This document shows positions 21,379 through 59,188 of a DNA stretch of 64,000 nt, piece after piece. Where the stretch lies: NCBI GenBank assembly GCA_950295325.1, contig OX485804.1:7626001-7690000 (forward strand), in the 5' to 3' direction. The notes below the pieces were generated by a model. It saw only the letters and a program-made list of their open reading frames with translations, made no database searches and was not told where the DNA came from. A program made the translations under genes and the position numbers. This DNA comes from Polytrichum commune. Lineage: Eukaryota; Streptophyta; Polytrichopsida; Polytrichales; Polytrichaceae. Numbering within the stretch: position 1 is the stretch's first letter; every line of letters begins with the position of its first letter.

Positions 21379-24300
21379 ATGATGCAGTGGTGGATTGCTT
21401 TCATTTCTCTGTTGGTGAGAGTTGTGGTTTGGTTGAAGTCGCACTTCCGTTCAATTTTATGGAAGCCCCAACGTGAGGATACCAGCTGTGTGCTTGGACA
21501 GGCGGGCGGCTCAGCACCGCATCATGGTGAGGACCAGCTTGTTGAGGGCACGGTGGTTGTGGATGCTTTGGATTCCACATCATGGTGGTCACATGATGCA
21601 CCGGATTTTGGTCTGGACCCGATTCTCTCTGCGATCTCCCGGAATGAGCAACTGCGGTTCGGCGTTACTTATAAATCTTCCGGCGAAGTTGATGCGTCTA
21701 GCCCTGAGGATCCCGATGTATGGAGGAAGACTATTGTGAAAAGGGTTTCCAAAGATCGGAATTTGTGCATGGACATCACCCGACATTCCGTAGCCTCTCA
21801 ATCCGGGGTCGTCCTCATCTTGATGGAAAATTTCTGTGTGGAGGAAGAAATTGCAGTTATGTTCATGGAAGAGTTTGCGAATGCCATGCGCTCCAACCCA
21901 AGGATTGAAATGGTACGTATTTTTGCTGTTTTCTTCGGAGATACAGATAGGACACTCGTAACACGCTTCATAACACTTGTAATGAACATGATTGGAGTGA
22001 TCCTGGAAAACCCTAGCTTGCGAAATGTTGAACTGCGTAATACTGCTGGAAAAGGCGTACTTCCGCTCGACCGAGCTGCAATCGAAAGCTTAGTATCCGC
22101 TCTCCGAAGGAATTTGACCCTGACCGGTTTTAGCATTTACAACAGAGGGGGGGTTTTTTTTGACACGGAGGGGCTCAAATTGTTCCTTGAACCCCTCATG
22201 ATAGGTGGGGAAGGCTCTTACCAAGGTTTAAAAACTCTCACTCTGGACTGCACTGGAATCAACGATGAAAGGGCAGAGGTAGTAGCATCCATGTTGCGGC
22301 ACAACACTTCTCTTACATGCATAGATCTCAGCGGTAACAAAATTGGGCCTCAAGGTGCGGCGCCCATTGCAGAGGCACTACGCTCCAATACTACGCTTCG
22401 ACAACTAGACATAGATTACAATCCCATCGGTGCAGCGGGACTGAAGGCATTGGTTGCATCTTTGACACACAACATGGCCAACGGTGACCTTCAACCCAAT
22501 TCATCTCTTACACATCTTGGTATGGCGGGTGACTTCGGGGTAGAGGACATGGAGCTCTTGGAGATCCTCGTACGCCAAAATACTTCCTTGTTGAGGTTGG
22601 ATTTGACCAACTCAAGGTTATTGGAAGTTGCAGATAATGTGATCCGACTGCTAGAGACCCTCAAAAGCAACAAGTGCTTGGAGGACGTCATGTTACGGGG
22701 TTGTGGCGGAGTGGTTGGGCGGAGGGTGTTGGGGACAATATTCGATCTACTAGATGTGAATCATCATCTTAAAGAGCTCGATCTGCGGCGTACACCGTTG
22801 GCAGAAGATGGAGGGGCGGGGATGGTGGAGGCGGTGCTGGAGCAGAAGGCCAAGCACAACATGTGGGAGGTGTTGCAGGCCATGGCCACTACCAGACCCA
22901 ATTCCGCCAGAATCTTCCTATGTGGCTACCCCTTTGCAGGTGAGCCCATGGACCCAATTTCAGGAAGCAAAACTCCTTGTCCTTCTCTTTTCAGGCTAAA
23001 AACAACTTTGAGAAACTTTTGTGCTTTATTATTTGTGAGTTCGATTCCATTTGAGTAGTACACAAGTGTGAGCGGCGCAAGAAGGGCCTAGACAAGACAC
23101 GTGCATATTTGATTCGGCAAAATATTGATAATAATATTAGCTATATCGAGATGAAACACATGGGCGTCTAAATCTCAAAGAAGTCCTCTTAAGATTGGGT
23201 TCCTATACTCAAAAAAAGGGACAAATTAGAAGATTTTGACCCCACTTCAACCCCATACTTTTACAAACAACTCTAATATTCGTTCGATGTTGGTCAGATT
23301 GCTTGTCTTTCAGGTATTTGAAGTAACTTCTTAGGCTTGGTTAATCTATGATGTATCATTCTTGCCACTTAGGGGATGCTTAAGTACTTTGGAGTAGTTG
23401 AATTGGAATGATCTTTAGTACTTACACTAGTACACTTTCAATCACAAATCGGAGCCTCATGTAGAGTAATATATGCATATCAACAGTACATATGGATTTT
23501 TCCAAACAAATGTAATTGACGAAAACTCTCCAATTTGACGCCAATTAATTTTGAACTCTGAAGTTGAACCTGTGGAAAATGGTTAGATGACCATAACCCA
23601 CAATAAATGATGGGGAATGGTCCACATGCAAATTGTTTCATGGACAATTCTCAACCTAGACAAATTGATCATTTTATTTTCTAGTAAAAATAAACCGAAC
23701 ATATATTTCAATGGTGTTTCTAAATTACGGGTTCTTCAATGCCAAAGTGTTGCCATGTCTTTTGGTATCGGAAGTTTACTTCAAATGTTAGATTTTTTCT
23801 CAATTTTTGCAAACCTATATCAAACTTGAGCATGTTAGGTTCATGCCATGATAGTCATGTGTATTTGTGTGATTCTTGAGCAGGCAAGACAACTCTTTCT
23901 CAAACCATAACGAAAGCAGTCAAACCCTCGGACCATAATGCAATACACTCTAAGCATAGAAAGCAATGGACATTTACAAGTTTACTATCAGGCATGCTCC
24001 GCAAGGGCGAGTCAAACAATGATCCAAAAGAAATGACACCACGAACGCGGGGCATTGAAGTACATGGTATGTCATTTGATGACATCATGGTCACCATTTG
24101 GGATATGGCAGGTCAAGATGATTATCATTCTTTCCATGACCTTGTGATTCCAAACCTTACCGGCAACTCCGGGAGTTCATGTTCTTTTTTACTTGTGTGC
24201 AATCCACTCCAACTCGGAACGCGTCGCCTCAAGAGTGTCCAAGTAATTGCAGATGAATTGTTATATTGGTTGCGGTTCATTGCCTCAAATTCAAGAATAT

Positions 24301-26992
24301 CAACAGCCTATAAGCCACATGTGATCATTGTATTGACAAACCTTGACATGGTATGTCCCGACTATGAAAGCCTCAATCTACCAAGAATCAAGGATAAGGT
24401 TGAATGGCTCAGAAACCTCTTCAAAGATATTCTTGAGATTGATTTACAAGTGTTTCCAGTCAACGCCTTGTCAATTGACTCCATCAATGTTTTGCTCCAA
24501 ACAATGAAGGCGCACTTGAAATTCCTATTGGGAAGATTGCCACATGTTTTTGAGGCTTGTTCAAGGATGCAAGTTCTTATTGCCAACTGGAACCGTGAGC
24601 ACCCCAACCAACCTCTTGTGCGGTGGAACGAGTTTTCTAAGTTGTGTGACAATGTGGAAGAGTTGAAATCTCTCGAGGGGCTTGGACCGGAGGTTGTGAA
24701 AAGGAAAAAAGAAGTTGTGGCAATTTCTTTACACGACAGCGGACACTTGATGTACAATGAAGAGCTTGATTTTGTGGTCTTGAACCCTCATTGGTTTTGT
24801 CATGATATCATCGGACGTGTGTTGAAATGCAAAGGGCTTGATAACTTGGATGGAATCACAAATGGTACCATGACCAAAATTGATTTCAAGCATGTTGTGA
24901 ATGCCTCCCTCCAACCGAACCTACAAGGGTTTAGTTTTGATGATTTGTTGCAAATGATGATAAAGTTGGAGTTTTGTTATGAGCATGATGACGATAAGGT
25001 GTTGATCCCTGCCTTGCTCAAAGATGACAACGATCAAGCATGTTTGGGGAAACGACAATTGCAATGGCCTTCGCAAGAGAAGCATTCAAATTGGCAGTAT
25101 GTGGGTCGGAGAATATTATGTGACGATAAAGTTCGAACCGTCCTCACTCTTGGGTTTTTCCCACGATTGCAGGTACAAAATTTAAACCATATCAACAGCT
25201 AGTGGTGAGCATGAGAACCTTACAATGCATTTATTGGTTATGAACATGTGAGCATCACAATTATGTAAGAAATAAACTATAATTAGTAAATTTCTTTTTT
25301 GGTATATTTCATGTCATTGGATTTCCCCTTGTTGTACACTATGTACACATGAAGGAATCAACGGAAGTATAATTCTTCATTGTCATGTCTTTTGTTTTGG
25401 GGTTCTTCTCATGTATATAGAGTATACGAGATTCTCATGATGTAAATTGTTTTGCGCTCAAGCAAAAATAGTACCACAAAATAATCTTTTGGAAAATATT
25501 TTAGAACCTTCGTTGTTTATCATTGTGCTAAGAAGTAATGCATTTACAAATCAAAGAGAGCGACGTTTAATGAAATTCTCTTTCATCGCAGGTGGTATTT
25601 CAAAAGCTTTTTGGAAAAGACAATGGTAAAAATAGCTACAAGCTCGCCAAGAATGTGATATCATTCTACATGAGCGGGATGGAAGTCATCGTGGAGAGTA
25701 GTGGTCAAATCGGTTTTTACATTGATATCATGGTGCGCTCTGCAAGGACCGACAAAGATGTTATGTTGGAGTTCTTACATACACATGTTATGAAACATAT
25801 CTATGACCTTTGTGCTCATCCTGTTTTGGGTTGCCAAGGAGTGAAACTTGTTGAGGGAATTTTACGTCCCACATGTGTGGAACGTTTGATTCCACGGATC
25901 CACAGGGAAGATCAAGTTGTTTTGGTTGAGGATCTCCAATCTATTGTTTTGGCAACTTGCGATTTTTCTTATGAGCACAATTGGAAAGAAGAGGGTCCGT
26001 TGGAAGGAGGTCATGATTATGCACAAACATTGTTGGGCAAGAAGGCATGGGAGATAATACTAAATAGACATCTCCGAGACTTGCAAAAGCTACAAAAGGT
26101 GCTCCCTTGTGACACGAAACATGAAGAGTTGATGCTTACACAACCGCAATGGATTGATGATTGTGATGATCATACATGTGAAGTGAGGATTGTAGATGTG
26201 CAAAAATTGGTTCAACGAGTGGGACGAAGATTGTATCACAAGATAGAAGAGATTGAAACCAACATTGTGAAGAGGGTGGATGACATGGAGAGCCGAATAT
26301 CCATAAAATTGAACCATATCATTTCTATGGAGAAAGACATGCTACCAAAGATATGTGAGAATATTGACAAGTTGATGACATTCTCAGTGGAATTGCAACA
26401 ATCTCAAGTGCCACGACTTGTGTACTTCACCACAACTCCCAAGAACAATTTGAAATGTATTGTGACACGCATGGTGCCTGGCCTTACCAATTTGAAAATG
26501 CACTTCATGTGTGAACATCGTGGAGGATTTCACATTGTGAATGATCAAAAAGGTTGTGATGTAACATTTGGCACAGAAGCAACAAGAGTGTTTCAAACGA
26601 TTTTGGTGTGGGGATTGAGAATATTCACTATATTGGCAAAAGTTGGTGCACATTTGACGGCCGGTATGGGAACAATGATTCCAGATCTAGCAAAGGATTT
26701 CATGTTGGTCGTTGATACGCCAAGCTTACTCGATGGTTGGGAATTACCTTATGTTGATGAAACGCTTGACCATAAACTTCAAAGATTAACAATCACGGAT
26801 GACGATAAACGTACAACTGAACAATGGTTGATTGATTTTTTGAAGGGAAAAAACTTGTATGGTTCTTTTTCTTTGCGAAAGGCTATGTACAAAAATAATA
26901 TTGGAGGATGTCATGGAACCATTGCATGGCTTTGTAGTGACCACATACAGGAAGGTGAAGATGAGTCTTCGTTAGTTTTGCTTCCTTGCTAG
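21379..26992 (+). CDS. LRR-Roc-COR (ROCO) GTPase, copy A, intact, 3 exons
   Basis: Predicted exons are 21,379-22,939, 23,884-25,172 and 25,592-26,992, giving 1416 aa. Both introns are GT-AG (phase 1, then phase 0). An ATG-ATG opens a hydrophobic N-terminus (WWIAFISLLVRVVVWL), a possible membrane anchor. RI-type leucine-rich repeats span about residues 200-475. Joining exons 1 and 2 makes Walker A GYPFAGKT (516-523). DMAGQ (594-598) and TNLD (672-675) are the G3 and G4 motifs of a Roc domain. COR follows (LNPHWFCHDIIGRVL; GRRILCDD; LGFFPRLQ across exons 2-3). A coiled coil (about 1157-1215) and a conserved C-terminal domain containing MHFMCEHRGGFHIVNDQKGC complete it. The order and length match plant TORNADO1-like ROCO proteins. 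The role is likely signalling; ligand and partners are unknown. Confidence 0.9.
22940..23883 (+). other. intron 1 of ROCO gene A (splits Walker A)
   Basis: The donor CAG|GTGAGC and acceptor TTGAGCAG|GC restore GKTTL exactly, so the boundary is well supported. By eye I find no difference between this 944-bp intron and the unit B intron (55,135-56,078), and the lengths are equal. Intron 2 and the LRR exon differ clearly. Confidence 0.85.
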
Positions 26993-27617
26993 TACACAAT
27001 TTGAAGACACAAAACTAGTGATTTCCAAACTGTAGAAAGTGAATCACATATGCACATGTGATCCAACCAAGGTTTAGGCCGTGAATGTAGAAAAGTTTTG
27101 TGCATGACAAATACTCGACAAGCCAACGTATGTTCATTTTATTTCAAAGGTCATAGCATGCCAATTTGGTTCAAATTCGTTACCTGTAAGCTTGATTTCA
27201 TCACTCAATTTGTTGGCTTGTGAGGTGGTCAAATGTTCACATTTCACTTAGAAGGTTAAATTATGGGTTGTTGGTTACATGTGTTTCCAAGGGAGATTTT
27301 TTGTGTGAAGCCTTTAAGGCATGTTTAAGTTGAAAATCTACACAAATGACTTGTCCAAAATTTGGGCATGACTATCCAAATACATCCTTTTAGTAGTGTA
27401 TCTTTTTAGGCATTCAAGGTGTTCAGGTTCAATAAAAAAACATGTGACGTCCCTTGGTCTATTGAATTGTTGAAGAAAAATCACAGTGGTCGCGATCAAT
27501 GTGACATGATCCAATGTAGTTGTAATTTAATTGCTCATGTTTCCAGCATGAGTGCAACTCATACGAAATATAATATGTGCAAATCCGAGTACAAACCATC
27601 CATGTAGCATCCATATT

Positions 27618-30600
27618 GTAATTTTTTCCCATTCTCCTTGTAAAATCAGTGTTTGAATGCCCACAACATTCTTCACAAGCATGTACAAAAATATATACAA
27701 TCCTAGTAGCATGACTAGCTTCCTCCTCCTCTCCTCTATTTCGACCATACTTGTTGAATTTTAAGGCGAAAAGAAGAAAAAATTAAGTGACAAGATAAGT
27801 GAAGGCATGTGTAGGCAAGTGAAGGCAAATTGAAGTCAACAAAATGGTCCAACTTCATTTTTTCCCAAAACTGCCTTTTTTGGGCTTATATTAAAAAAAT
27901 CAGCACATCCACTTCTTGCCCCATGGTCATTCCTCTTGGTCCACATTCAATTTACACCTAGAGAGGGCCCCAATGGCATCGTAAATCAATTTTTTAAGAA
28001 CTCGGACCATGAAATGTAGACCATGAACTCGTACCATGGAATAAGGCATCTTCCGTGGGACGAGTTCATGGTCTATGGTGTAAACCGCCCCTTAAATATC
28101 ATATGTAGTCTACTACCTTATGCAACTTGTAGAGCAGAGAGATTGAATTCGACGTCTGTAAGGGGATAAAATATCAATATTTAACAATCTTTGTCAAAAT
28201 AGAGTCCGAACTTCTAGTCTTTCTATTGAGAGCCTTGTGTTCGGTAATGACAACCAAGAACATGGGAATGGGTTCCATGGATTTGTGTTTTTCATTTCAA
28301 CAACACATGCTTTGATTCAAATCAACAAATATTATTTCAATGCCTACAAATTGATATGTCCTACATATTACATGGTTCGCAGAGGACTGCCCTCTTAGTG
28401 TATTTATCAACACGTACATAGTTGATAAGGGTGCTCTTCTATTGTTGTGGATATTAATTGCGATCATGACATCCACAACTTTAATTGCTTGTATAAAGTG
28501 AATGTATGGAACATATATGAAGGAACATCTCTCCTCTGAATTAAAGGTACCCAGTTCAGCACCTTGTTTGTGTTAATGCTTGGTGTACACCCTGTGACGA
28601 TCCCAGGTTGGTCACGTAGAAAAGTTAGGTAACCATGTGCAATCAAATATAGGTCACATCTTATTCTTTTGAGATAAAGGTTTGAACATTGTGAGAGAAC
28701 GAAAAAACCCTAATAATATTTGGGAGTCATGTGTATAAAAAACATGGGGGTCCAATTATTTCTCATAGTTTCTTAATTTCTAAATATTACCAAAGGGTAC
28801 TAAACAAAAAAGGGAAGGGAAAACGTACCTACATGTATAGTTGGTTTTGTATTTGAAGAGAGATGAAAGATGGTTTTATTCGCTCTCATGGATGATTTCG
28901 TAAGACATATTTCCTCCTCGTCATCCCTAGGGTTTGTGCCTACAAGTGGTGCATTTGTGTGGTTTATCATTCTCTTTTCCATGACACTATGTGTTTTTGT
29001 GGTAACTTTGAATGGGATTTTCATGGGTGGGAATTTATTTTTAACAAACATACCCCTTAATAAAATCATTGCATAGTTTATTTTTCTAGTTAACTATAAA
29101 TTATCATTAAATCAAGAAACAAAAAATAAAATTATGACTTAAGGGGTCCAAAAATACTATGGTGCACCAAACTCCCCCCCCCCCCCCTCCAAATTTAATT
29201 ACACTATGAACACAAGTGCATACATGAAAACATGCTAAGTGATCGATCTGGGATGGTGACAGTCTTTACACTCCATTCATATTAAGCACCTAAACAACTG
29301 GAATTGTTTTATTTGTTCCCTAGAAATAAGAGTTGTTAATTCTATACATTGGGACTATACACACCGTTAGTGGTTCATCAAGCACGTCTTTGATACATTG
29401 CCCATCAAAAATTGTAAATGTTAGAATTTTGCACATTGTTGAGGTGAAACCTATTGGACTCAAATTTTATGTACATGTTTGATAAGGTATGCCACCAACT
29501 AACACTAGCATGAATGGAACGTCACATTGTGGAAAGTTGTTGCGCCCTTAAACGAAGGGTACCTACATGTCACTTGCGGGGGTAGACCTTAGAGTGACAC
29601 CCAAGTCCCCAAATGCAACAAATGTGGTGGTGATGGTCACATGAGGTTTCATTTGATGCCGGTAAATGAACTACCATTGGACAACTATTAGACTATTAGA
29701 ATGGAATGAAGGATTTTCCAACAATTTACTATTAGACTCGCAAAGTGACTTGCAAAGCCCACCAAAGTTTGTTGGGATGTTTAACCACATAATTGGCATC
29801 AGGCCAAACTTGACATGGGCATTCCATTCTTTGATGGAATGGTGGGGTCCTACATGGAGGATAAGAGGTTGATTTAATATGAGTGGGGAAGGACAACTAA
29901 GTCACGGATGGTGTCCCATGGATTCCCCCACTCTAGTCCAATGCAACTAGTTCCCATGGAGGTATTTTCTCTTTTTATCTACCCGTACCAGTAAGAACGT
30001 GACCCAAACTCCTGAATGGATGGCCCAAAAGCTAGGATTCCAGGGAAGTCTCTAAGTGGAAACAACATCATGTAGGAAGTTGGGAGATGTCATCATGTTT
30101 TGATTTAACTGTCAGTTTTCTTTTCAATCCAAATTACCATTCATGTACCTTTAAAGAACAAGTAGTGTTATATGTAGGTTTTAAGGCATTTTTAAGTTGA
30201 AAATCAAGATAAATAACTTATCTAATTAGTGTAGGGCATCATGTTGTGGGGTGGGCAAGTAGTGTGTTGGCTATTGTGTTTACGGCTTTGTTATGTTGAT
30301 TGGATTGAAGGTTGTTGATGTGTTTAATGTTGTAGCATGAAGTAGGTGTAAGCATGTGTCATTTTGTTGGGATGTGCATAGACTACATAGGGGGGATATC
30401 TTTGGTATGACGATGTGTTTGTTTTTTGTAGTTGCCTAGATATCTACCATATCTAAAATTCAGGGCTTGAGTAATTTGTGCATCTGCGATCCATGGGGCA
30501 TCCTAGAATAGAGTGGACCACATTAGGTGGAGGTTAGTGTGGAGAGTCATTTGTGTACATAGGGAAGTGTGTTTTTTGCTTGTGAAAGTATTGCATTTTC

Positions 30601-31145
30601 ATATTCTTTTTAGATTTGTGAACAAATCCGTCATGTTGAGTACATGTTGGATGGATGAAAGTCCAATACAAAGCCTGGGAGTTTGGGCAACTACATTGAT
30701 GTGTCCCATAAGTGTATTGGATTAATATAATAGGTACAAGTTGCTAAACATTTTACTAGGAATATCATTTTCTACAAAATAATTTGTTTCCATTCTTTTG
30801 ATGTGCACATTAGCTTCTTCTTCTTATTATTATTATTATTATTATTATGATGGGGGGTGGGGGAGGGAACATATTATCAATAAAACATTACATCAACATG
30901 GAACTCTAGTCGGTAACTTATCTTACTAGGTGTCACAAGTTACAGATGAGCCATTTACCTTTTCAAAATTGTCGATTTTACAGCAAAACTTTTGACAGTT
31001 CACTGTTCACTTATATGTCAAGAAAATGTTTAGATCAAGTAAATGTACCTATAGAGAATAACCAAAGCATTGCAATGAACAGTAGCCAACTGCTGATTCG
31101 AAAGTAAAGACAATAGCTGGCATGATTATTTCATGTAATATCTGA
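27618..31145. other. intergenic; one MITE-like block at about 27.8-28.1 kb
   Basis: About 27,795-28,096 is an inverted relative of the repeat at 1979-2425, ending GTGTAAACCGCCCCTTAA. The remainder is AT-rich, with a long C run near 29,167 and a (TTA/ATT)n microsatellite near 30,820-30,848. No ORF carries a recognisable motif. Confidence 0.45.
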
Positions 31146-33503: not shown

Positions 33504-33806
33504 CACTAAATAGGATATTTAGTGTTTGATACACTAAATACGAACACGTACACTAAATATCAATAACCCTATTAAAGTAAGTAGCATTAAATGTAAACTC
33601 AAACACTAAATATCAACTATGGTAATATGTGGAAGTTACATGTTTGAATTTAGTGTTAGTTAGGATGTGAAAAAAAAGGATGTAATAAGGGAGGAGGCAA
33701 TAGGGAAGGTAGCGGCACATCTATGTCTTACGCTAATTTTCAAAGTATTGAAAATTAGTGTTGAGGAGGGTAGGGTGGTAAACAACACTAAATATCCTAT
33801 TTAGTG
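33504..33806. mobile_element. MITE with CACTAAATAGGATATTTAGTG ends
   Basis: The left terminus is CACTAAATAGGATATTTAG and the right terminus is its exact inverse. Each end is itself nearly palindromic. It is flanked by TA on both sides. Several internal ACACTAAATA motifs repeat. The start CACTA recalls CACTA elements, but the TA flank and small size leave the superfamily open. Related ACTAAATATTGTATTTAGTG strings occur near 31,290 and 38,203. Confidence 0.6.
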
Positions 33807-33809
33807 TAC

Positions 33810-34942: not shown

Positions 34943-36419
34943 CACAGTCCGGGGAGTTTTATACAAAAATCGGTACATTTCCGATCTTTTATAAAGACAT
35001 TCGGATTTTTATTTTTTTGCTCGGAAGCTACCTAAATCCAATTTTTATTCTCGGTTAAAAACCGATATTTAAATTTACCATTCGGTAATTTTCCGACTTT
35101 CTGAATTTCATTTCGGTATGTTTCCGAAGATTTGTATTGTATGTCGGATTTGTTTTCTTAAATATTGTAAAACAAAATTGGTGTTATGCTTTTAAAGGGG
35201 TGAATTTTGTTGATAGAAAATCCAAGTATCCTTGGAAGGATTTGAACTTTGCCAAGCCCCCACCAACTTGGGGCCAAGGATTTAGCCTTTAAAAAATATA
35301 TACTGGATTTGTTCGAAGGAGACACAAAAAACATACAATACAATTTCGACTCTCAAGCCGCATAAGGAAGACCAACAACAAGTGTCACATTGAAATTTCA
35401 GAAATAGTTTCTACCTTGTCAAAACAAGGTGCTCCGGGTGTACACGAAGGAAGGCACCAAATAGTTGCGGCTGAGAGAAACTTCATCCCACGCTTTGTAC
35501 TTAACAGCGCCATGCACAAGACGGAGAAGAAAAGCTCTATATTTCACGGCGCCATGCACAAAATTCCAGTGTGATGTCACTGTGAAGTATCAAAATCGTT
35601 GTGAGAGATTCGAGAGATCCAGGAGACAAGCATTGGTTCCGCACAAGTTTGTTTCCTACTCTTCAAGACTTATCTACAGGATTTCAAGAGATTCACGACC
35701 TCCAAAATAGATGTCTCCGAGTGGATCGCAGTGGATCGCCGCACCGAACTGGACCTTCACCCTGGACCTCCGAAACATATGTCACCAACTGGATCGTAGG
35801 TGGATCGCCGCACCGAACTGGACCTCCGAAACATATGTCTCCAACTAGATCGCAGGTGGATCGCCGCACCGAACAGGACCTCCGAAACATATGTCCCCAA
35901 CTAGATCGCAGGCGGATCGCCGCAGGTGGATGCAGAAACAAATAGAAGCGGAAGAGCAGTAGCGAAAGAGCACAGAGAGAAATCCCAATAGAGGAGTGAG
36001 AGGAGTGAGATACTTTGCCCAAGGGACTCAAACTCCTTATACTCGTGAGAGAGGGTCCTTGGGTGCTTAGAGCCTCAAAACCCTAATCGGCCCAGTGAAC
36101 GGAACCAACCCTAAATTAATTAGCCTCCATGGTTCTTGACTTTATGAGTCATGACTCTAGTATTACCCTAGTAGAAATTTCCGCCCTATCCCTAGTCCCT
36201 TCGGCTACTTGCCTAAAATTTAAAAATTGGCTCGGTAAATATCCTAAAATATGATGCCTCAACCGGCTATATTGCCGATCTTTTCTCATTTGAACCGGTC
36301 AATTTCCGACCTTAACAATTTTAAGTCGGTACCTCGTCCGAATCATTGCGAATTCATTCGGAAATCTCCAAAAAATTTCGGCTAGCTCGTAACCAAAGTT
36401 CGGTACTCCCCGTTCATTG
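34943..36419. mobile_element. non-autonomous hAT-like element, copy 1
   Basis: It starts CACAGTCCGGGGAGT and ends ACTCCCCGTTCATTG, giving imperfect 15-bp inverted ends. It is flanked by the 8-bp duplication TTCCAGGA (34,935-34,942 and 36,420-36,427). A second copy at 51,379-52,855 has its own different 8-bp duplication and is the same length and apparently identical. Both ends carry clustered TCGGTA...TTTCCGA motifs, the pattern of subterminal transposase-binding sites. The middle holds a 56-bp tandem repeat (about 35,722-35,935). There is no transposase. The open frames (up to 114 codons) come from the tandem repeat and are not supported as genes. Confidence 0.9.
35228..35281 (-). other. tRNA-like sequence inside the element
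   Basis: On the minus strand ATCCTTGG and CCAAGGAT form an 8-bp end stem. TGGCCCCAAGTTGG resembles a pol III A box and GTTCAAATCC a B box. At 54 nt it is too short for a tRNA. It may be a degenerate SINE head or tRNA-derived fragment captured by the element. It is present in copy 2 at 51,664-51,717. Confidence 0.25.
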
Positions 36420-41891: not shown

Positions 41892-43493
41892 CAGTGTTCA
41901 AGATTGAAGCCCTCATATGAGTTTCATTTTGAAGGGCTCTAAAATTTGAGCCCTTCGGTTGAAGGGCTAGTTCAAATTCAAGACGTCAATTCAGTAATAT
42001 AGAAATAAAATATAAAAAACTCATATTAAACTTATGCATGATTTATATGGTGCATGCTTCCAATACAATGTGAAGAATTAAGAATCAACCATCTAACTCC
42101 ACCTCTTCTAGTGATAATGCCCTACGCTTGTTGGTTCTTGTGCCAATTTTCCAAGATTCAAAAATACTATCCCAATCCATGAATTCAACTCCTAACCCAT
42201 TTAGACTAACCCTCATTAAAGCATCTAGTGTGTCAAGGTTGAGTCTAGTTCTCCTTTCACTCTTAACCCAATTTTGCTTTGAAAAACCACGCTCACAAAC
42301 AACAGTGCTAGTTGGGATCACAAGTATGGCTTGCCATAGCGACATCATAGTTGGCCAATTAATCATGAACTCCCGGTCATTGCCACAAAAAACCCAAGCT
42401 TCTTGCATACTTCGGCGTTCACAAACGGAACATAACATCTCCACGAATTCTAGCAATTCCGCATTGCATTGATTAACAAGGTCATCGCTCCAACGGAAAT
42501 GTGTCACCAACCGGTTCAACCATTGTTCCGTTAATGTCCCTCTGTCCAATTCATCTACGGGATAGTGCTTCGGGCTAAAAAGCCGGGCCGCATTGAAAAT
42601 GGACAAGTCAGGAAATCGATCATTGAGTGAATCGATGATTTTCTGCACATACTGCCTCCCCAACATGATGCATGCCTCCAATGAGCCTCCTACGTCACAC
42701 TCGGGCATGGAATCATAATGCAAGATATGCATTTTTTCACACCCAAAACTATCAACATACAATATTTGCCCATTGGGTACCACCTCGCGGAGAAACTTTC
42801 CTAGGTGTTTGGTTGTCAGGCCAAAACTTACACCCAGATAGTGTCTACGAAACAAGCTGATTGTTACATCAATCGTAGAAGCTATGCTAGTGATATCTAC
42901 AAGATCAAACTGAAACTTGCGATTGACCTTATTCAACTCTGATAATATATCAGCTAGCATGTGAATGAAAAATTGGAACTGAAGAGAAGTTAGATCCTTG
43001 TACCATGTGGGTTCTTCAACCTCCCAAGTTTCTAAAATTGCAGGCATACAAAATACCAATCTCTCCATGACCAAGCCACAGGATAACCATCTCACCGAAT
43101 GGATCTGTAAAGTTGCACGGGATTTCAAATCAGCACTGATTTCACATTGATTGAATCACATCACACTACAACACTGACTCAATGCTTACCAAAGAAAGGG
43201 TTGGATTCCAATCTTTTGCAAGACCTAAAAAGTTGAATTCCAAGTCAGATCGATGTTGAATGAATCATTTGCTAGGTGTTGAGGTTGTCACTGTAGCGAC
43301 CTCCTCGTTGCTGTAACGACCTCCTCGTCACTGTAGCGCTACAGTGTTGACGGGTGTAAAAAATTTGAAGACGTCAAGTGAAGTTTTCATTTTGAGTTTG
43401 GGGTTGCATTTTGAAGGGCTGTTTTGAGAGAGGTATATTTTGAAGGGCCAAATCGCGTTTGAAGGGCATTGAAGACTTCAATCTTGAACACTG
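41892..43493 (-). mobile_element. hAT transposon, 1.6 kb, internally deleted
   Basis: Perfect 18-bp inverted ends (CAGTGTTCAAGATTGAAG) occur at 41,892-41,909 and 43,476-43,493. They are flanked by an exact 8-bp duplication ATCCCTAG (41,884-41,891 and 43,494-43,501). GAAGGGC motifs repeat at both subterminal regions (about 41,930-41,970 and 43,412-43,470). It encodes the C-terminal part of a hAT transposase on the minus strand. Only about 350 bp separate that ORF from the 5' end, so the zinc finger and first catalytic part are missing. Confidence 0.95.
42085..43128 (-). CDS. hAT-family transposase, C-terminal part
   Basis: 347 aa, open throughout. The start region RATLQIHSVRWLSCGLVMERL resembles the 'RW.S...' block of hAT transposases of the ZNF862/DUF4371-like group. 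The C-terminus (about residues 255-315) holds WPTMMSLWQAILVIPTSTVV, CERGFS and a following NLDTLDALMRVSL, the hAT dimerisation signature. A full-length hAT transposase is usually 600-900 aa with an N-terminal BED zinc finger, which is absent. The product is therefore probably inactive alone, but could be a regulator or a domesticated fragment. The ATG is the first available in frame; coding may begin in a lost exon. Confidence 0.8.
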   Translation of the reverse strand: MKSRATLQIHSVRWLSCGLVMERLVFCMPAILETWEVEEPTWYKDLTSLQFQFFIHMLADILSELNKVNRKFQFDLVDITSIASTIDVTISLFRRHYLGVSFGLTTKHLGKFLREVVPNGQILYVDSFGCEKMHILHYDSMPECDVGGSLEACIMLGRQYVQKIIDSLNDRFPDLSIFNAARLFSPKHYPVDELDRGTLTEQWLNRLVTHFRWSDDLVNQCNAELLEFVEMLCSVCERRSMQEAWVFCGNDREFMINWPTMMSLWQAILVIPTSTVVCERGFSKQNWVKSERRTRLNLDTLDALMRVSLNGLGVEFMDWDSIFESWKIGTRTNKRRALSLEEVELDG

Positions 43494-48889: not shown

Positions 48890-49665
48890 CTTCCACACTT
48901 ATGAGCTCAAGAACAAGAACCCCAAAGCTAAAAACATCAATCTTTTTCACTTGGATGACCCATTTGAAACATACTCATGCGCTAAATGGTTTACAAACTT
49001 TGGTAGATTAAAATGGCTTGGTAAGTCTATTGGAAGCATGTTTTGTTTAAGATCAACAAATCCTCCAAAAAAAAACAAAACAAAGAAACCATAAAATTTA
49101 ATGCGTATGTACTTACTTTGTGCCAACAATGTGCATTGTCATCATGTGAGTTTATTCATTTGGAAACAATAACACTAAACCAAAATTTGCCCTCAATGCT
49201 TCCAAATTTTTGTCCAACAAAATATTGCGTGCTTTCACATCCCCATGAATGAATTGACTAAAGCATGTAGGTAATGATGGCCTTGGGCTACTTCTTGATA
49301 ATTGTTAAGTGTATATGCCAAGTCACTAATAAACCACCTTCGTGCCCTCCCTTTAGAATTAAAAGGACAAAGATTCATACACAAGCCATAAACTGCTAAA
49401 ATTCCACCAACGTCAAATAAATCTCAATGGTTGATAGATTGCATCATTGTTTGAGAGATCACTATGACATCATAATCCGAGTATTAACATAAAATAAAGA
49501 ACCATTAGGGACAAAATTGTACCAAAAAGGGTTTGAGCAAATCCTTTGTTTTCAATGTACTCATACACCCAAAGCATTTGATGTCCATGTAAACAACAAC
49601 CTTGTAATTTCACAAGATTTTGGTGTTCTACGTTTCTAAGAAGGATCACTTCATTCAAATGAAAT
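48890..49665 (-). pseudogene. receptor-like kinase remnant (unit B)
   Basis: Same layout as the unit A remnant. NEVILLRNVEHQNLVKLQGC and HQMLWVYEYIENKGFAQTLFG (about 49,520-49,655) preserve subdomains III-V better than in A. IHGDVKARNILLDKNLEA (about 49,190-49,250) keeps the catalytic Asp, but the DFG motif reads NFG. HLAHEYVSNGS and KKIDVFSFGVLVLELIS follow toward 48,895. The upstream P-loop/Lys region and ectodomain are missing and the pieces are not joined by one frame. It was probably already a pseudogene before the segment duplicated. Confidence 0.8.
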
Positions 49666-49979
49666 TATCAATTTTTTGATGGGATGTGAGGAAGAGTAGT
49701 TTCATGGCTACTTGGCTCCCGCTATCAAGACAACCTTGAAATTGTCAAAAACAAATGTAACATGAAACTTGTCAAAAGTTAACAAAGAATTTAATGAAAT
49801 GCAACCTTCAATCCCTTGCACAAAATGATAGAGGTACATTGGAATGCTTTGTGCATCCAAAGCCTTGTAGCACATAGTGCACATCATATTGTTGGATCTT
49901 TGGTCTACACCTTTGAAGGTGATATTTCTAGTGGATTGACATCTACCCTCATTTCAAAGATTAATATATCTAAACACAA

Positions 49980-51378
49980 TTGTCGTGCATACATAACATT
50001 ACTCAATTGATGAGTTGTGTTCAAATGCGTATGGTGGCTTAGTTCCTATTCTCATTGGATAGTGGGTGAGTGTTAGTTATATGTCATATGAATGTTAGTA
50101 CTTTTTAGTCACATTTGACCCGGGCTTGCTTATTTTTTGGTTTTCTTTTGTTTAGTATGATATGTGTTAGATGTCTTATGACTATTTGTTGGATTACATG
50201 ATGCTCAATGTCCCACTCAACCATCATTTTTGTTATGACAACCTTGAACCTTATGGAGGAGATGTGCATCCACATTAGAGAGTTGTCATTAACACCTCCA
50301 ACGACATTCATTCTCTTTCTATATAGGACATTTGGTCAACATGAAATAATATGACCTTACTTGATTCTCCCATTATACAAGTTGTTTCAAAATAATAAAT
50401 TTGAAATTTCATGGCTACCAAAATAAACATCGATGCATGTAAATGTATGACAAAATAAAATCTACAGAGACAAAAGAGGCGAAACAACACCATAGCCTAC
50501 CTCACCCGATTTCAGGTCTGCATTGAAATCTTGAGTAGCTCTTTGAAAATCGGTGTAAGTGAATAATGTTGGTTTGAGATCAGATGCGGCAAACTTTACA
50601 CATGATCAACTTCCAAATAATGCACTACAATAGTTGCATTTTACGTAGTTCTTCGCTTGAGTATCTTAGTATATACAAAGTTAATATTTTCATTTATAAT
50701 CAACTCTATATATTAATATCATTAATATGTGATGAACTATAGCACTGCAACTTTCAAGACAATGATTCAAACCAGTACATGATATTTGCATACTATGTAA
50801 AGTTACGGATTCAAGGATAGATATTCAATCTGCTTTGGATGGCCTTTGGACACTTTGTTTTGGGCTCTCGCAATTGCACGGCTCTATAATAGATTATGCT
50901 AGATCCATTGGATTATACTAGATTTATTGAATCAGCCTAGCTTCTTGGCCCTAAGGCCTTTATATATGGGAAAATTGGCCCCCGCTATAATCTTATCATA
51001 ATGTGTAGTTGAGGCCGGCCTCCAACCCAAAAGAGGCTGAAATTTCATGCAATCGGCCTGAAGGGGAATTGGCCCGGCCTCTCGGTGTAAAGCGGCCCTT
51101 AGTAGCCATGTGGTCACACATGGAGTGACGCAGTCAGTCTTTGTTTGTTGTGTGGTTTTGTGCTTTGGGATGCGCTACAAGTTGTGGTTGAAGACTTTGT
51201 CATTTCCTTCAAACCCCGATCCCTCAACTCTTCGCGTTCAAGGACGGTACTGAACTGGTGCAGAAGAGGCAAGTGCCGCGTGTCGATGGGCCATTCTTTT
51301 GTTGACAGGGCCCACTTTGAGCACATTTTGGACCTTGGATTCTCCCCCAATATATTACACTGATGAATGCCTTCGATG
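49980..51378. other. spacer upstream of ROCO copy B
   Basis: Homologous to unit A spacer with A-only segments absent. No gene supported. AGGCCGGCCTCCAACC and GTGTAAAGCGGCCC (about 51,014-51,100) mark a MITE-like end shared with 20,180-20,262. Confidence 0.45.
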
Positions 51379-52855
51379 CACAGTCCGGGGAGTTTTATAC
51401 AAAAATCGGTACATTTCCGATCTTTTATAAAGACATTCGGATTTTTATTTTTTTGCTCGGAAGCTACCTAAATCCAATTTTTATTCTCGGTTAAAAACCG
51501 ATATTTAAATTTACCATTCGGTAATTTTCCGACTTTCTGAATTTCATTTCGGTATGTTTCCGAAGATTTGTATTGTATGTCGGATTTGTTTTCTTAAATA
51601 TTGTAAAACAAAATTGGTGTTATGCTTTTAAAGGGGTGAATTTTGTTGATAGAAAATCCAAGTATCCTTGGAAGGATTTGAACTTTGCCAAGCCCCCACC
51701 AACTTGGGGCCAAGGATTTAGCCTTTAAAAAATATATACTGGATTTGTTCGAAGGAGACACAAAAAACATACAATACAATTTCGACTCTCAAGCCGCATA
51801 AGGAAGACCAACAACAAGTGTCACATTGAAATTTCAGAAATAGTTTCTACCTTGTCAAAACAAGGTGCTCCGGGTGTACACGAAGGAAGGCACCAAATAG
51901 TTGCGGCTGAGAGAAACTTCATCCCACGCTTTGTACTTAACAGCGCCATGCACAAGACGGAGAAGAAAAGCTCTATATTTCACGGCGCCATGCACAAAAT
52001 TCCAGTGTGATGTCACTGTGAAGTATCAAAATCGTTGTGAGAGATTCGAGAGATCCAGGAGACAAGCATTGGTTCCGCACAAGTTTGTTTCCTACTCTTC
52101 AAGACTTATCTACAGGATTTCAAGAGATTCACGACCTCCAAAATAGATGTCTCCGAGTGGATCGCAGTGGATCGCCGCACCGAACTGGACCTTCACCCTG
52201 GACCTCCGAAACATATGTCACCAACTGGATCGTAGGTGGATCGCCGCACCGAACTGGACCTCCGAAACATATGTCTCCAACTAGATCGCAGGTGGATCGC
52301 CGCACCGAACAGGACCTCCGAAACATATGTCCCCAACTAGATCGCAGGCGGATCGCCGCAGGTGGATGCAGAAACAAATAGAAGCGGAAGAGCAGTAGCG
52401 AAAGAGCACAGAGAGAAATCCCAATAGAGGAGTGAGAGGAGTGAGATACTTTGCCCAAGGGACTCAAACTCCTTATACTCGTGAGAGAGGGTCCTTGGGT
52501 GCTTAGAGCCTCAAAACCCTAATCGGCCCAGTGAACGGAACCAACCCTAAATTAATTAGCCTCCATGGTTCTTGACTTTATGAGTCATGACTCTAGTATT
52601 ACCCTAGTAGAAATTTCCGCCCTATCCCTAGTCCCTTCGGCTACTTGCCTAAAATTTAAAAATTGGCTCGGTAAATATCCTAAAATATGATGCCTCAACC
52701 GGCTATATTGCCGATCTTTTCTCATTTGAACCGGTCAATTTCCGACCTTAACAATTTTAAGTCGGTACCTCGTCCGAATCATTGCGAATTCATTCGGAAA
52801 TCTCCAAAAAATTTCGGCTAGCTCGTAACCAAAGTTCGGTACTCCCCGTTCATTG
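51379..52855. mobile_element. non-autonomous hAT-like element, copy 2
   Basis: Same 1477-bp element as 34,943-36,419, offset by exactly 16,436 bp with no indel and no substitution that I can find. It has its own 8-bp target duplication CTTCGATG (51,371-51,378 and 52,856-52,863). It sits upstream of ROCO copy B, about 730 bp before the start codon, where unit A has no insertion (about 20,680). Confidence 0.92.
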
Positions 52856-53583
52856 CTTCGATGGTGGAGCATCCATCCTCCGGAGAATCTGCTCTTGATT
52901 GAAAAATATGAAAAATTAAAAAAACCTTGTATACAGACAGCACAATACACTTCTCGACATGAACTTGGAAGTTGCATGATGTTGGTGCTGCCCACTTGCT
53001 ACCTCAATGTTCTGAATATGATATACCGCACACCGTTTATTTTCATTCAGAATCCATTTCGTATTGTAGAGCTTCAGGAACTCCAGTGCGACCATGGTTC
53101 TGTTGACGACGGACAACCTTCCGAATCCGTGGAGTTTAGATGAGACTGGGGATTTCTAGGCGTCCTCGTGCAGTGCGTCGTTGGGAGCGTGTGCCCTTCA
53201 ACCTATTCTATGCTCGCACTCCTTCCCCCCGGAGAGAGCTTTTCCGTGGTAGACATATTTCAAAGAGAGAGGAAATTGCACTGAGCAGTGGGATTGTAAG
53301 TATCGGAGAACTTGAGCGAGAAATAGTTTTACCTCACTCTTGCCACGATCCATGTATGAAGACCTGCGTAGAGCGCAGTTGTAGAGGGGAACTGTTGTGC
53401 TGGTGGATGGGGAGTGTGCACCCTGTAATTTCTTCCTCCAAACTTCGGAGTGGAGAGAGCATGCGTGGGACTCGTAGGAACTAGTCTGCGAAGGGAAACT
53501 TTTGGGGCGTCCTCAGAAGTGCACTAGTTTTGTAGCACACACAAATATTGTTATCGTTGTTGCAAAACACCGACACAAGAGTC

Positions 53584-56500
53584 ATGATGCAGTGGTGGAT
53601 TGCTTTCATTTCTCTGTTGGTGAGGGTTGCGGTTTGGTTGAAGTTGTACTTCCGTTCAATTTTATGGAAGCCCCAACTTGAGGATACCGGGTATGTGCTT
53701 GGACAGGCGGGCGGCTCAGTACCGCATCATGGTGAGGACCAGCTTATTCAGGGCACGGTGGTTGTGGATGCTTTGGATTCCACATCATGGAGGTCACATG
53801 ATGCACTGGATTTTGGTCTGGACCCGATTCTCTCTGCGATCTCCCCGGATGAGGCACTGCAGTTCGACGTTTCTTATAAATCTTCCGGCGAAGTTGATGC
53901 GTCTATTGTATCCCGATGTATTAAGAATCCCGATGTATGGAAGACTATTGTGAAAAGTACTCCCAAAGATCGGAATTTGTGCATCGACATCACCCGACAT
54001 CCCGGAGCCTCTCAATCCGGGGTCTTTCTCAACTTCCTGGGAAATTTCTGTGTGGAGGAAAAAATTGCAGTTATGTTCATGGAAGAGCTTGCGAATGCCA
54101 TACGCTCCAACCCAAAGATTGAAAGGGTACATAGTTATACTAATTTCTTCAGAGATACAGTTAGCACAGTCATAATGAACATGATTGTGGTGATCCTGGA
54201 AAACCCTGGCTTGCAAGATGTTGACCTGCTTCATTGTGGAAAAGGCTTACTTCCACTCGACCGAGCTGCAATCGAAAGCTTAGTATCCGCTCTCCGAAGG
54301 AATTTGACCCTTACCCGTTTTAGCATTGACAACGGAGGATGGGGGGATTCTTTTGACACGAGGGGCTAAAATTGTTCCTTGAACCCCTCATGATAGGTGG
54401 GGAAGGGTCCTACCAAGGTTTTAAAACTCTGTATCTGAGCCGCACTGGAATCAACGATGAAAGAGCAGAGGTAGTTGCATCCATGTTGCGGCACAACACT
54501 TCCCTTACATGCATACGTGTCACGGGTAACGAAATCGGGCCTCAAGGTGCGGCGCGCATTGCAGAGGCACTACGCTCCAATACTACGCTTCGACAACTGG
54601 ACATAAGTTACAACTCCAATATCGGTACAGCGGGACTGAAGGCACTGGTTGCATCTTTGACACACAACATGGCCAACGGTGACCTTCAACCCAATTCGTC
54701 TCTTACACATCTTTCTATGGGGGGCAACTTATGGACAGAGCACATGGAGTTCTTGGAGACCCTCGTACGACAAAATACGTCCTTGGTGAGGTTGGATTTG
54801 TGCTCCTCAAGCTTATTGCGAGTTGCAGATAACGTGATCCGCCTGCTAGAGGCCCTCAAAACCAACAAGTGCTTGGAGGACGTCTCCTTAATGGGTTGTG
54901 GCGGAGTGGTTGGGCGGAGGGTGCTGAGGACAATATTCGATCTACTCGCAGTGAATCATCATCATAAAAAGCTCGATCTAGAGGCTACATCTCTAGCAGA
55001 AGATGGAGGGGCGGGGATGGTGGAGGCGGTGCTGGAGCAGAAGGCCAAGCACAACATGTGGGAGGTGTTGCAGGCCATGGCCACTACCAGACCCAATTCC
55101 GCCAGAATCTTCCTATGTGGCTACCCCTTTGCAGGTGAGCCCATGGACCCAATTTCAGGAAGCAAAACTCCTTGTCCTTCTCTTTTCAGGCTAAAAACAA
55201 CTTTGAGAAACTTTTGTGCTTTATTATTTGTGAGTTCGATTCCATTTGAGTAGTACACAAGTGTGAGCGGCGCAAGAAGGGCCTAGACAAGACACGTGCA
55301 TATTTGATTCGGCAAAATATTGATAATAATATTAGCTATATCGAGATGAAACACATGGGCGTCTAAATCTCAAAGAAGTCCTCTTAAGATTGGGTTCCTA
55401 TACTCAAAAAAAGGGACAAATTAGAAGATTTTGACCCCACTTCAACCCCATACTTTTACAAACAACTCTAATATTCGTTCGATGTTGGTCAGATTGCTTG
55501 TCTTTCAGGTATTTGAAGTAACTTCTTAGGCTTGGTTAATCTATGATGTATCATTCTTGCCACTTAGGGGATGCTTAAGTACTTTGGAGTAGTTGAATTG
55601 GAATGATCTTTAGTACTTACACTAGTACACTTTCAATCACAAATCGGAGCCTCATGTAGAGTAATATATGCATATCAACAGTACATATGGATTTTTCCAA
55701 ACAAATGTAATTGACGAAAACTCTCCAATTTGACGCCAATTAATTTTGAACTCTGAAGTTGAACCTGTGGAAAATGGTTAGATGACCATAACCCACAATA
55801 AATGATGGGGAATGGTCCACATGCAAATTGTTTCATGGACAATTCTCAACCTAGACAAATTGATCATTTTATTTTCTAGTAAAAATAAACCGAACATATA
55901 TTTCAATGGTGTTTCTAAATTACGGGTTCTTCAATGCCAAAGTGTTGCCATGTCTTTTGGTATCGGAAGTTTACTTCAAATGTTAGATTTTTTCTCAATT
56001 TTTGCAAACCTATATCAAACTTGAGCATGTTAGGTTCATGCCATGATAGTCATGTGTATTTGTGTGATTCTTGAGCAGGCAAGACAACTCTTTCTCAAAC
56101 CATAACGAAAGCAGTCAAACCCTCGGACCATAATGCAATACACTCTAAGCATAGAAAGCAATGGACATTTACAAGTTTACTATCAGGCATGCTCCGCAAG
56201 GGCGAGTCAAACAATGATCCAAAAGAAATGACACCACGAACGCGGGGCATTGAAGTACATGGTATGTCATTTGATGACATCATGGTCACCATTTGGGATA
56301 TGGCAGGTCAAGATGATTATCATTCTTTCCATGACCTTGTGATTCCAAACCTTACCGGCAACTCCGGGAGTTCATGTTCTTTTTTACTTGTGTGCAATCC
56401 ACTCCAACTCGGAACGCGTCGCCTCAAGAGTGTCCAAGTAATTGCAGATGAATTGTTATATTGGTTGCGGTTCATTGCCTCAAATTCAAGAATATCAACA

Positions 56501-59188
56501 GCCTATAAGCCACATGTGATCATTGTATTGACAAACCTTGACATGGTAGGTCCCGACTATGAAAGTTTCAATCTACCAAGAATCAAGGATAAGGTTGAAT
56601 GGCTCAGAAACCTCTTCAAAGATATTCTTGAGATTGATTTACAAGTGTTTCCAGTCAACGAATTGTCAATTGACTCCATCAATGTTTTGCTCCAAACAAT
56701 GAAGGCGCACTTGAAATTCCTATTGGGAAGATTGCCACATGTTTTTGAGGCTTGTTCAAGGATGCAAGTTCTTATTGCCAACTGGAACCGTGAGCACCCC
56801 AACCAACCTCTTGTGCGGTGGAACGAGTTTTCTAAGTTGTGTGACAATGTGGAAGAGTTGAAATCTCTCGAGGGGCTTGGACCGGAGGTTGTGAAAAGGA
56901 AAAAAGAAGTTGTGGCAATTTCTTTACACGACAGCGGACACTTGATGTACAATGAAGAGCTTGATTTTGTGGTCTTGAACCCTCATTGGTTTTGTCATGA
57001 TATCATCGGACGTGTGTTGAAATGCAAAGGGCTTGATAACTTGGATGGAATCACAAATGGTACCATGACCAAAATTGATTTCAAGCATGTTGTGAATGCC
57101 TCCCTCCAACCGAACCTACAAGGGTTTAGTTTTGATGATTTGTTGCAAATGATGATAAAGTTGGAGTTTTGTTATGAGCATGATGACGATAAGGTGTTGA
57201 TCCCTACCTTACTCAAAGATGACAACGATCAAGCTTGCTTGGGGAAACGACAATTGCAATGGCCTTCGCAAGAGAAGCATTCAAACTGGCAATATGTGGG
57301 TCGGAGAATATTATGTGACGATAAAGTTCGAACCGTCCTCACTCTTGGGTTTTTCCCACGATTACAGGTACAAAATTTAAACCATATCAACGGCTAGTGG
57401 TGAGCATGAGAACCTTACAATGCATTTATTGGTTACGAACATGTGAGCATCACAATTACGTAAAAAAAAAACTATAATTGATAAATTTCCTTCATGATAT
57501 ATTTCATGTCATTGGATTTCCCCTTGTTGTACATTATGTAGTCATGAAGGAAGCAACGGAAGTGTAATTCTTCATTGTGATAATTTTTTGTTTTGGGGTT
57601 TTTCTCATGTATATAGAGTATACGAGATTCTCATGATGTACATTGTTTTGCGGTCAAGCAAAAATAGTACCACAAAACAATCTTTTGGAAAGAATTTTAG
57701 AACCTTCATTGTTTATCATTGTGTTAAAAAGTAATGCATTTACAAATCAAAGAGAGCGACGTTTAATGAAATTCTCTTTCATCGCAGGTGGTATTTCAAA
57801 AGCTTTTTGGAAAAGACAATGGTAAAAATAGCTACAAGCTCGCCAAGAATGTGATATCATTCTACATGAACGGGATGGAAGTCATCGTGGAGAGTAGTGG
57901 TCAAATCGGTTTTTACATTGATATCATGGTGCGCTCTGCAAGGACCGACAAAGATGTTATGTTGGAGTTCTTACATACACATGTTATGAAACATATCTAT
58001 GACCTTTGTGCTCATCCTGTTTTGGGTTGCCAAGGAGTGAAACTTGTTGAGGGAATTTTACGTCCCACATGTGTGGAACGTTTGATTCCACGGATCCACA
58101 GGGAAGATCAAGTTGTTTTGGTTGAGGATCTCCAATCTATTGTTTTGGCAACTTGCGATTTTTCTTATGAGCACAATTGGAAAGAAGAGGGTCCGTTGGA
58201 AGGAGGTCATGATTATGCACAAACATTGTTGGGCAAGAAGGCATGGGAGATAATACTAAATAGACATCTCCGAGACTTGCAAAAGCTACAAAAGGTGCTC
58301 CCTTGTGACACGAAACATGAAGAGTTGATGCTTACACAACCGCAATGGATTGATGATTGTGATGATCATACATGTGAAGTGAGGATTGTAGATGTGCAAA
58401 AATTGGTTCAACGAGTGGGACAAAGATTGTATCACAAGATAGAAGAGATTGAAACCAACATTGTGAAGAGGGTGGATGACATGGAGAGCCGCATAACCAA
58501 AATATTGAACCACATCATTTCCATGCAGGAATACATGCTACCAAAGATATGTGAGAATATTGACAAGTTGATGACATTCTCGGTGGAATTGCAACAATCT
58601 GAAGTGCCACGACTTGTGTACTTCACCACAACTCCCAAGAAGAGTTTGAAATGTATTGTGACACACATGGTGCCTGGCCTTACCAATTTGAAAATGCATT
58701 TCATGTGTGAACATCGTGGAGGGTTTCACATTGTGAATGATCAAAAAGGTTGTGATGTGACATTCGGCACAGAGGCAACAAGAGTGTTTCAAACGATTTT
58801 GTTGTGGGGATTGAGGATATTCATTATATTGGCAAAAGTTGGTGCACATTTGATGGCCGGTATGGGAACAATGATTCCGGATCTAGCAAAGGATTTCATG
58901 TTGGTCGTTGATACGCCAGGTTTACTCGATGGTTGGGAATTACCTTATGTTGATGAAACGCTTGACCATAAACTTCAAAGATTAACAATCACGGATGATG
59001 ATAAACGTACAACTGAACAATGGTTGATTGATTTTTTGAAGGGAAAAAACTTGTATGGTTCTTTTTCTTTGCGAAAGGCTATGTACAAAAATAATATTGG
59101 AGGATGTCATGGAACCATTGCATGGCTTTGTAGTGACCACATAAAGGAAGGTGAAGATGAGTCTTCGTTAGTTTTGCTTCCTTGCTAG
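53584..59188 (+). pseudogene. LRR-Roc-COR (ROCO) gene, copy B, frameshifted LRR exon
   Basis: Predicted exons are 53,584-55,134, 56,079-57,367 and 57,788-59,188, with the same splice sites as copy A. The LRR exon breaks near 54,358: GACACGAGGGGC lacks one G of A's GACACGGAGGGG, and a TAA follows at 54,367. Downstream frames are open and encode the remaining LRRs, the Walker A junction, DMAGQ, TNLD, COR and the C-terminal domain. Exons 2 and 3 differ from A at about 3 and 17 residues; the LRR exon differs far more. If the base is correct, full-length protein is not made. Otherwise this is a functional paralogue of about 1410 aa. Confidence 0.85.
55135..56078 (+). other. intron 1 of ROCO copy B
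   Basis: 944 bp, GT-AG, phase 1. It is apparently identical to intron 1 of copy A. Confidence 0.85.

Follow-up and report, generated by a model that had tools for sequence, protein, structure and literature searches.

Plant NLR receptors occur in clusters that evolve by birth and death and by gene conversion, they carry a nucleotide-binding switch, and the concave residues of their leucine-rich repeats (LRRs) are under diversifying selection. The ROCO proteins of brown algae, in which LRRs precede a Roc-COR GTPase module, have been proposed as immune receptors, and four concave LRR sites in them are reported as positively selected (Teng et al. 2024, PMC11378527, citing Zambounis et al. 2012); the family is that of Ectocarpus and Saccharina. 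According to this source, ROCO genes number one or two in plants, mutants of TRN1 (TORNADO1) show growth and morphogenesis phenotypes, and expanded sets are found in Chara braunii (10 genes) and Gonium (19 genes) (PMC11378527), so that a green-lineage ROCO expansion is in itself no novelty. Here, we analysed two ROCO genes, A and B, located in a stretch of 64,000 nucleotides from the moss Polytrichum commune (C2:7626001-7690000 of the 408-Mb genome; hereafter the window), together with their paralogues in the same genome. An earlier note on the window, made from the sequence alone, had proposed diversifying selection on the concave LRR face of these genes. Our estimates agree with this proposal: the ratio of nonsynonymous to synonymous substitution rates (dN/dS, omega) at concave sites exceeds 1 in all three sets of close paralogues (4.3, 5.8 and 5.2), and including more paralogues did not bring the scaffold positions to the same level (0.22-0.53).

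The standard register LxxLxLxxN was given to 11 repeats of the LRR region, and four site classes were distinguished, i.e. concave (X; positions 2, 3, 5, 7 and 8), scaffold (S; positions 1, 4 and 6), position 9, and the remainder of the repeats (R; helix/loop). Position 9 had initially been pooled with the scaffold and was separated post hoc, after the data for the second ROCO cluster (cluster 2, on C3) had been seen. In the AlphaFold model, the LRR of A forms a horseshoe resembling those of ribonuclease inhibitor (RI) and NLRs, and the predicted strands begin at position 3 in every one of repeats 2-11; the register of repeat 1 was shifted from start 161 to 158 after the predicted strand at 143-148. 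The first register gave similar concave omegas of 4.18, 5.57 and 5.0 (twice the log-likelihood difference, 2dlnL, 50.4, 147.8 and 237.8), and the result thus does not hinge on where repeat 1 starts. RI and the animal NLRs (NLRPs, NOD2) are found among the top 50 Foldseek matches, together with axonemal LRR proteins; TM-scores by query length are just 0.31-0.51 and identities 14-21%.

The comparison of A and B reproduced most of what had been noted by eye. The seven A/B motif pairs quoted in the earlier note are all present in the translations of 21331-23058 and 54357-55253, and its estimate of about 37 differences in about 190 LRR residues corresponds to 37 of the 208 comparable residues in repeats 5-11. 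Over the whole LRR, A and B differ at 30 of 54 concave positions vs 41 of 287 other positions (Fisher p 4.6e-10), the latter consisting of 5/33 scaffold, 33/244 helix/loop and 3/10 position 9 residues. The scaffold leucines largely stay, as had been claimed (concave vs scaffold alone, Fisher p 0.00025). The number of differences in the Roc-COR exon is indeed low, albeit 4 of 429 residues instead of 3. What the note had missed is that the LRR exon of B is not open: its reading joins two frames across a 1-bp deletion near 54359, and B is accordingly a pseudogene unless the deletion is an error of the assembly. Pairwise NG86 estimates for A and B (first register) were dN 0.407 and dS 0.080 at concave sites, dN 0.072 and dS 0.141 in helix/loop, and dN 0.097 and dS 0.026 in the N-terminal part, where dS rests on 2.5 synonymous differences.

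In the likelihood fits, branch lengths were shared and each site class had its own omega, and J, the most diverged copy, was excluded throughout; all selection estimates refer to differences between paralogues of one genome. For the three copies that are open in all exons, A, D and E, omega was 4.3 for X, 0.22 for S and 0.66 for R (X=1 rejected, 2dlnL 52.7), and the maximum 2dlnL among 60 data sets simulated under X=1 with this design was 4.75. The corresponding values were 5.79, 0.47 and 1.03 for A/D/E/F/G (2dlnL 157.1) and 5.18, 0.53 and 0.93 for the nine copies A-I (2dlnL 252.1). Fitted position by position in A/D/E/F/G, omega was 0.56, 1.19, 4.38, 0.01 and 7.53 at positions 1 to 5, and 0.88, 11.91, 7.86, 1.23 and 4.35 at positions 6 to 10. 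This alternation is that of a beta strand with one exposed face, and strong positive selection in the close paralogues is centred on positions 3, 5, 7 and 8 plus position 10, which lies in the adjoining loop and is elevated although outside class X. In the class-free comparison, M2a was favoured over M1a by a 2dlnL of 167.7 and assigned an omega of 9 to 12% of the sites. The 29 sites with an M2a posterior above 0.95 comprise 18 X (a class of 55 among 520 codons), 8 R, 1 position 9 and 2 N-terminal sites; the last two (93 and 95) are both within another predicted strand (91-99). The signal is also seen in codons with a single nucleotide change, where the pairs among A, D and E have synonymous:nonsynonymous counts of 2:63 for X, 57:69 for R and 11:7 for S together with position 9 (first register). 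Of the five pairs for which X was compared with S+R, four were separated (Fisher p 6.6e-5 for AD, 5.3e-4 for AE, 4.2e-4 for DE and 7.2e-3 for AB); the fifth, FG, is discussed below.

The remainder of the genes behaves differently from the concave face. Omega was 0.39 for exon 2 in A/D/E/F/G (including about 10 codons past the donor) and 0.35 in A/D/E, and 0.53 and 0.56, respectively, for exon 3, i.e. both exons are under purifying selection; the N-terminal part had an omega near 1 (0.76-1.12). When A-E are compared in their 10 pairings over seven regions, the LRR always has the lowest similarity, lower than the two introns and the 5' flank, with a narrow margin for pair BD (0.906 vs 0.907). 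The contrast between LRR and Roc-COR drawn from A and B in the earlier note therefore stands in the other paralogues (exon omega 0.35-0.39), whereas between A and B themselves it is inflated by gene conversion. These two genes share 234 consecutive identical polymorphic sites in 22802-24349, compared to a 99.9% permutation bound of 40, and show zero mismatches in nine 150-column windows from 22886 to 24235, all of intron 1 included. Additional A/B tracts lie in exons 2 and 3, and shorter tracts above the bound, mostly barely so, were detected for AC, AF, BC, CD and EF. Gene conversion has thus made the switch part uniform between A and B; the start of the long tract at the end of the LRR would fit selection against homogenisation of the LRR, which we infer from one event.

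A second ROCO cluster, on C3, has an LRR exon that is 23-25% identical to that of A. In a fit of five of its six copies, with L010 excluded and loop lengths that vary, omega was 2.86 for X (X=1 rejected, 2dlnL 22.7), 8.1 for position 9, 1.6 for R and 0.88 for S, and M2a was favoured over M1a by 93.5.

Gene A consists of three exons with GT/AG borders and has an open spliced frame of 1416 amino acids; TRN1 is of similar length. A Pfam match to LRR_6 in exon 1 (mean AlphaFold pLDDT 77.3) places the LRR N-terminally, as in plant, prokaryote and brown-algal ROCOs, and the moderately hydrophobic N-terminal helix predicted ahead of it might tether the protein. Exon 1 closes within the P-loop (GYPFA-G), so that the GxxxxGKT motif ahead of COR, GYPFAGKT, spans the exon 1/2 junction. 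Exon 2 passes the Pfam cut-off for COR-A (39.1 vs 35.3 bits) and falls below that for Roc (17.8 vs 27 bits); its profile matches the COR part of LRRK2 and of the bacterial Roco structures 3dpu (CtRoco) and 4wnr, the matches to LRRK2 Roc structures being weak (E 0.04-0.08). The G3 motif DxxG is present as WDMAGQ in A, D and H. A canonical G4 motif, NKxD or TKxD, was not found in the copies compared, which have TNLD (clade 1), TGFD/TCFD (cluster 2) or THSD (L009); with the Asp kept and the Lys lost, GTP binding is not assured. The start of exon 3 looks like the remainder of COR. For the C-terminal extension that follows, no family scored above cut-off, and a profile search against solved structures gave none at E 1; the AlphaFold model of exon 3 is poor (mean pLDDT 36.9). 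Exon 3 is kept between the two ROCO clusters at 28-30% identity, and its C-terminal part carries a hydrophobic stretch. No NB-ARC domain was detected in exons 1-3 of gene A at E 0.01. Gene B (53584-59188) is a copy in a duplicated segment of roughly 14 kb. The coordinates of these features, and the ROCO loci elsewhere in the genome, are compiled in Table 1.

Table 1 Features of ROCO genes A and B in the window and ROCO loci of the P. commune genome.
Feature	Position	Strand	Basis
Gene A exon 1: N-terminal hydrophobic helix and LRR domain	21379..22939	+	Open frame, GT donor at 22940
Gene A LRR region: 11 RI-like leucine-rich repeats, basis of the site classes	21799..22851	+	Repeat register matched to predicted strands
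Gene A intron 1	22940..23883	+	GT...AG; 100% identity A vs B
Gene A exon 2: putative Roc GTPase, then COR-A	23884..25172	+	Pfam, exon profile, splice frame
Gene A exon 3: probably end of COR, C-terminal extension, stop codon	25592..26992	+	Open frame, splice frame
A/B gene-conversion tract	22802..24349 (A); about 54997-56544 (B)	+	Shared run of polymorphic sites
Gene B exon 1, broken by 1-bp deletion near 54359	53584..55134	+	Two frames, alignment
Gene B LRR region (left end approximate)	54013..55046	+	Alignment with A
Gene B exon 2: Roc-COR, 4/429 residues unlike A	56079..57367	+	Comparison with A
Gene B exon 3: 17/467 positions (stop counted) unlike A	57788..59188	+	Comparison with A
Close relatives, 10 loci	A-F at C2 7.65-7.82 Mb; G, H, I, J elsewhere		Roc-COR exon match
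Distant ROCO cluster, 6 loci	C3 41.29-41.52 Mb		Roc-COR exon match
Single ROCO locus	C5		Roc-COR exon match
ROCO fragment L018	C2 67.8 Mb		Roc-COR exon match

The search of the genome with the Roc-COR exon gave 22 matches, which were grouped into 18 loci; this number is a lower bound. A genome-wide search with Pfam Roc seemed to return small GTPases for the most part, and the loci were not counted from it. The fragment L018 has no stop-free run of 130 residues and was excluded from the analyses. Among the close paralogues, the break lies in exon 1 for B, C, H, I and J and in exon 2 for F and G, and in the C3 cluster long open frames for all three exons are present in three of the six copies (L012, L014 and L015). 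The family is thus characterised by clustered duplication and frequent loss of copies. NB-ARC genes are found elsewhere in the genome (126 matches from 126 scored, out of 466 candidates). The matches listed in the genome-wide searches for ROCO, Pfam Roc, NB-ARC and the other sequences considered below are located on contigs C1-C7, in keeping with the n=7 of Polytrichaceae.

From the diversifying selection we infer that a perception role for this ROCO family, as suggested in the earlier note, is likely. More specifically, we consider it probable, judging from sequence comparison and predicted structure, that the genes encode intracellular LRR-Roc-COR receptors whose concave face binds an evolutionarily changing ligand. 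The ligand of the horseshoe could be, for example, a protein of a pathogen or symbiont, or a host protein modified by such an effector; binding would be relayed to the Roc-COR GTPase switch, and from there to the C-terminal extension, which would signal.

The same sequence signature would be expected if the concave face diversified for recognition inside the species or genome, such as recognition of gametes or individuals or paralogue-specific pairing, instead of against microbes. Paralogues could be selected to stop cross-binding, and the present evidence does not name a microbial ligand. We regard this explanation as unlikely, although it deserves consideration: pairing between paralogues should also alter Roc-COR surfaces, and that exon is conserved in the close paralogues; for the brown-algal ROCOs, which also have selected concave sites, the source discusses an immune-receptor role (PMC11378527). 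A burst of adaptation after each duplication, leaving every paralogue with a fixed partner by neo- or subfunctionalisation and involving no ongoing arms race, is quite unlikely in our judgement. A few such bursts would be indistinguishable from continuing selection in estimates made between paralogues; the signal is, however, found in AD, AE and DE alike (Fisher p 6.6e-5 to 5.3e-4), and with 7 of its 10 close loci broken, the family resembles receptor families that evolve by birth and death.

The broken state of B, C, F, G, H, I and J, each of them somewhere in the gene, and the N-terminal omega near 1 could suggest instead that the LRR merely tolerates change under relaxed constraint or pseudogene decay. 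Such relaxation cannot yield an omega above 1, and for A, D and E, which are open throughout, it is ruled out, barring an error of alignment or model, by the concave omega of 4.3 with a scaffold omega of 0.22; for the signal as a whole, we consider it very improbable. There is, in our view, a negligible chance that the pattern is an artefact produced when paralogues recombine or when mutations change several nucleotides at once. Conversion tracts do exist and both processes can inflate site models, but the pairwise counts are independent of a tree and the contrast between concave and helix/loop sites is already evident in codons with a single change, from which the artefact was judged unlikely; moreover, neither process tracks the repeat register.

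Several observations weigh against receptors with a ligand-binding concave face, or against parts of this reading. Diversifying selection on a binding face is silent on the identity of the ligand, and the low number of Roc-COR differences between A and B is in part a product of gene conversion. The frame is open throughout the three exons in just three of the 10 close paralogues, namely A, D (L002) and E (L003); of these, E, otherwise an open copy, has WDMACQ in exon 2, i.e. the G3 Gly is replaced by Cys, which may make it a switch-dead or decoy-like paralogue. Position 2 was counted as concave and is not elevated (omega 1.19), X is not separated from the other sites in the F/G pair (3:15 vs 17:50, Fisher p 0.54), and intron 2 has diverged further than the LRR in each of the five pairs that involve F. 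In the C3 cluster the signal is less confined, as the 30 supported sites comprise 6 X, 6 position 9 and 18 R sites, and when position 9 was pooled, the "scaffold" omega was 2.39 vs 2.81 for concave sites. With a signal in the same direction, supported sites mostly in R and loops of variable length, this cluster supports the confinement to the concave face partially.

The P. commune genes share with the brown-algal ROCO genes the LRR-Roc-COR order, an expanded family, pseudogenes and selected concave LRR sites, and in our own mapping the selected brown-algal sites 14, 16, 18 and 19 have the same spacing as positions 3, 5, 7 and 8 here. They differ in that each shuffled brown-algal LRR, as described in PMC11378527, is a separate 72-bp exon encoding a 23-residue repeat and is alternatively spliced, whereas in the moss a single exon holds all the repeats, which are RI-like, follow one another at intervals of 27-38 residues and vary by substitution. 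The ROCO genes of Chara braunii and Gonium are likewise multi-copy, and for these the source gives numbers and not LRR selection. The horseshoe is an alpha/beta LRR as in RI, NLRP proteins and NOD2, joined to other partner domains. With plant NLRs, the moss genes have in common clustering, birth and death, conversion, concave diversification and a predicted nucleotide-binding switch; unlike in NLRs, a Roc-COR GTPase replaces NB-ARC and the LRR is N-terminal to the switch. TRN1 is also a plant LRR-Roc-COR protein; in contrast, the Roc-COR exon has matches at 18 or more loci here. Our literature searches, which covered titles and the starts of abstracts and left most subscription journals outside coverage, found no diversifying ROCO receptor of a land plant described among the matches listed.

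The kind of system is therefore already known, and what appears to be new is the land-plant lineage, probably an early-diverging moss, the evidence for selection there and the genetic route, a single LRR exon. We give an even chance to the broader proposal that mosses, or this lineage at the least, use ROCOs as an NLR-like repertoire of rapidly diversifying intracellular receptors. This would be a second class of nucleotide-switch receptors beside NB-ARC in land plants, one that arose separately from that of brown algae and through point substitutions within one LRR exon, not through exon shuffling. If true, brown algae and land plants would both have made a diversifying sensor from the LRR-GTPase design. 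Knowledge of plant ROCOs comes mainly from one developmental gene, TRN1, and a land-plant family of at least 18 loci that shows a clean pattern of concave-face selection points to a class of receptors distinct from NLRs and receptor kinases. The open copies A, D and E offer concrete genes and residues for binding and infection tests, and the moss ROCOs could serve as a natural system for the response of Roc-COR, the switch of LRRK2, to an LRR ligand.

The window also contains transposon-like sequences. A 1477-bp element with imperfect terminal inverted repeats is present in two 100% identical copies, at 51379-52855 and 34943-36419, which are flanked by 8-bp direct repeats (CTTCGATG and TTCCAGGA). 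It sits upstream of B and is missing from the homologous site of A; together with the identity of the copies and the direct repeats, this indicates a recent insertion upstream of B. In our reading, the element is probably a non-autonomous hAT-like element, and 77 partial or full matches to it were listed genome-wide. Between A and B, an open frame with a hAT dimerisation domain (42085-43155, minus strand) is a possible transposase relic, and downstream of B, an open frame with DUF7769 (60016-61023, plus strand) has a Tc3-like helix-turn-helix match marginally below cut-off. In addition, LEAFY was considered: types I and II are reported to occur together in mosses outside Bryopsida, Polytrichum commune among the species concerned, and in one liverwort (PMC6588583). 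In the present genome, LEAFY was found at three loci, as expected of a land plant or close kin, and two of these were examined (L016 and L017). One of them has His/Arg and the other Asp/Cys at two sites that we take to tell type I from type II.

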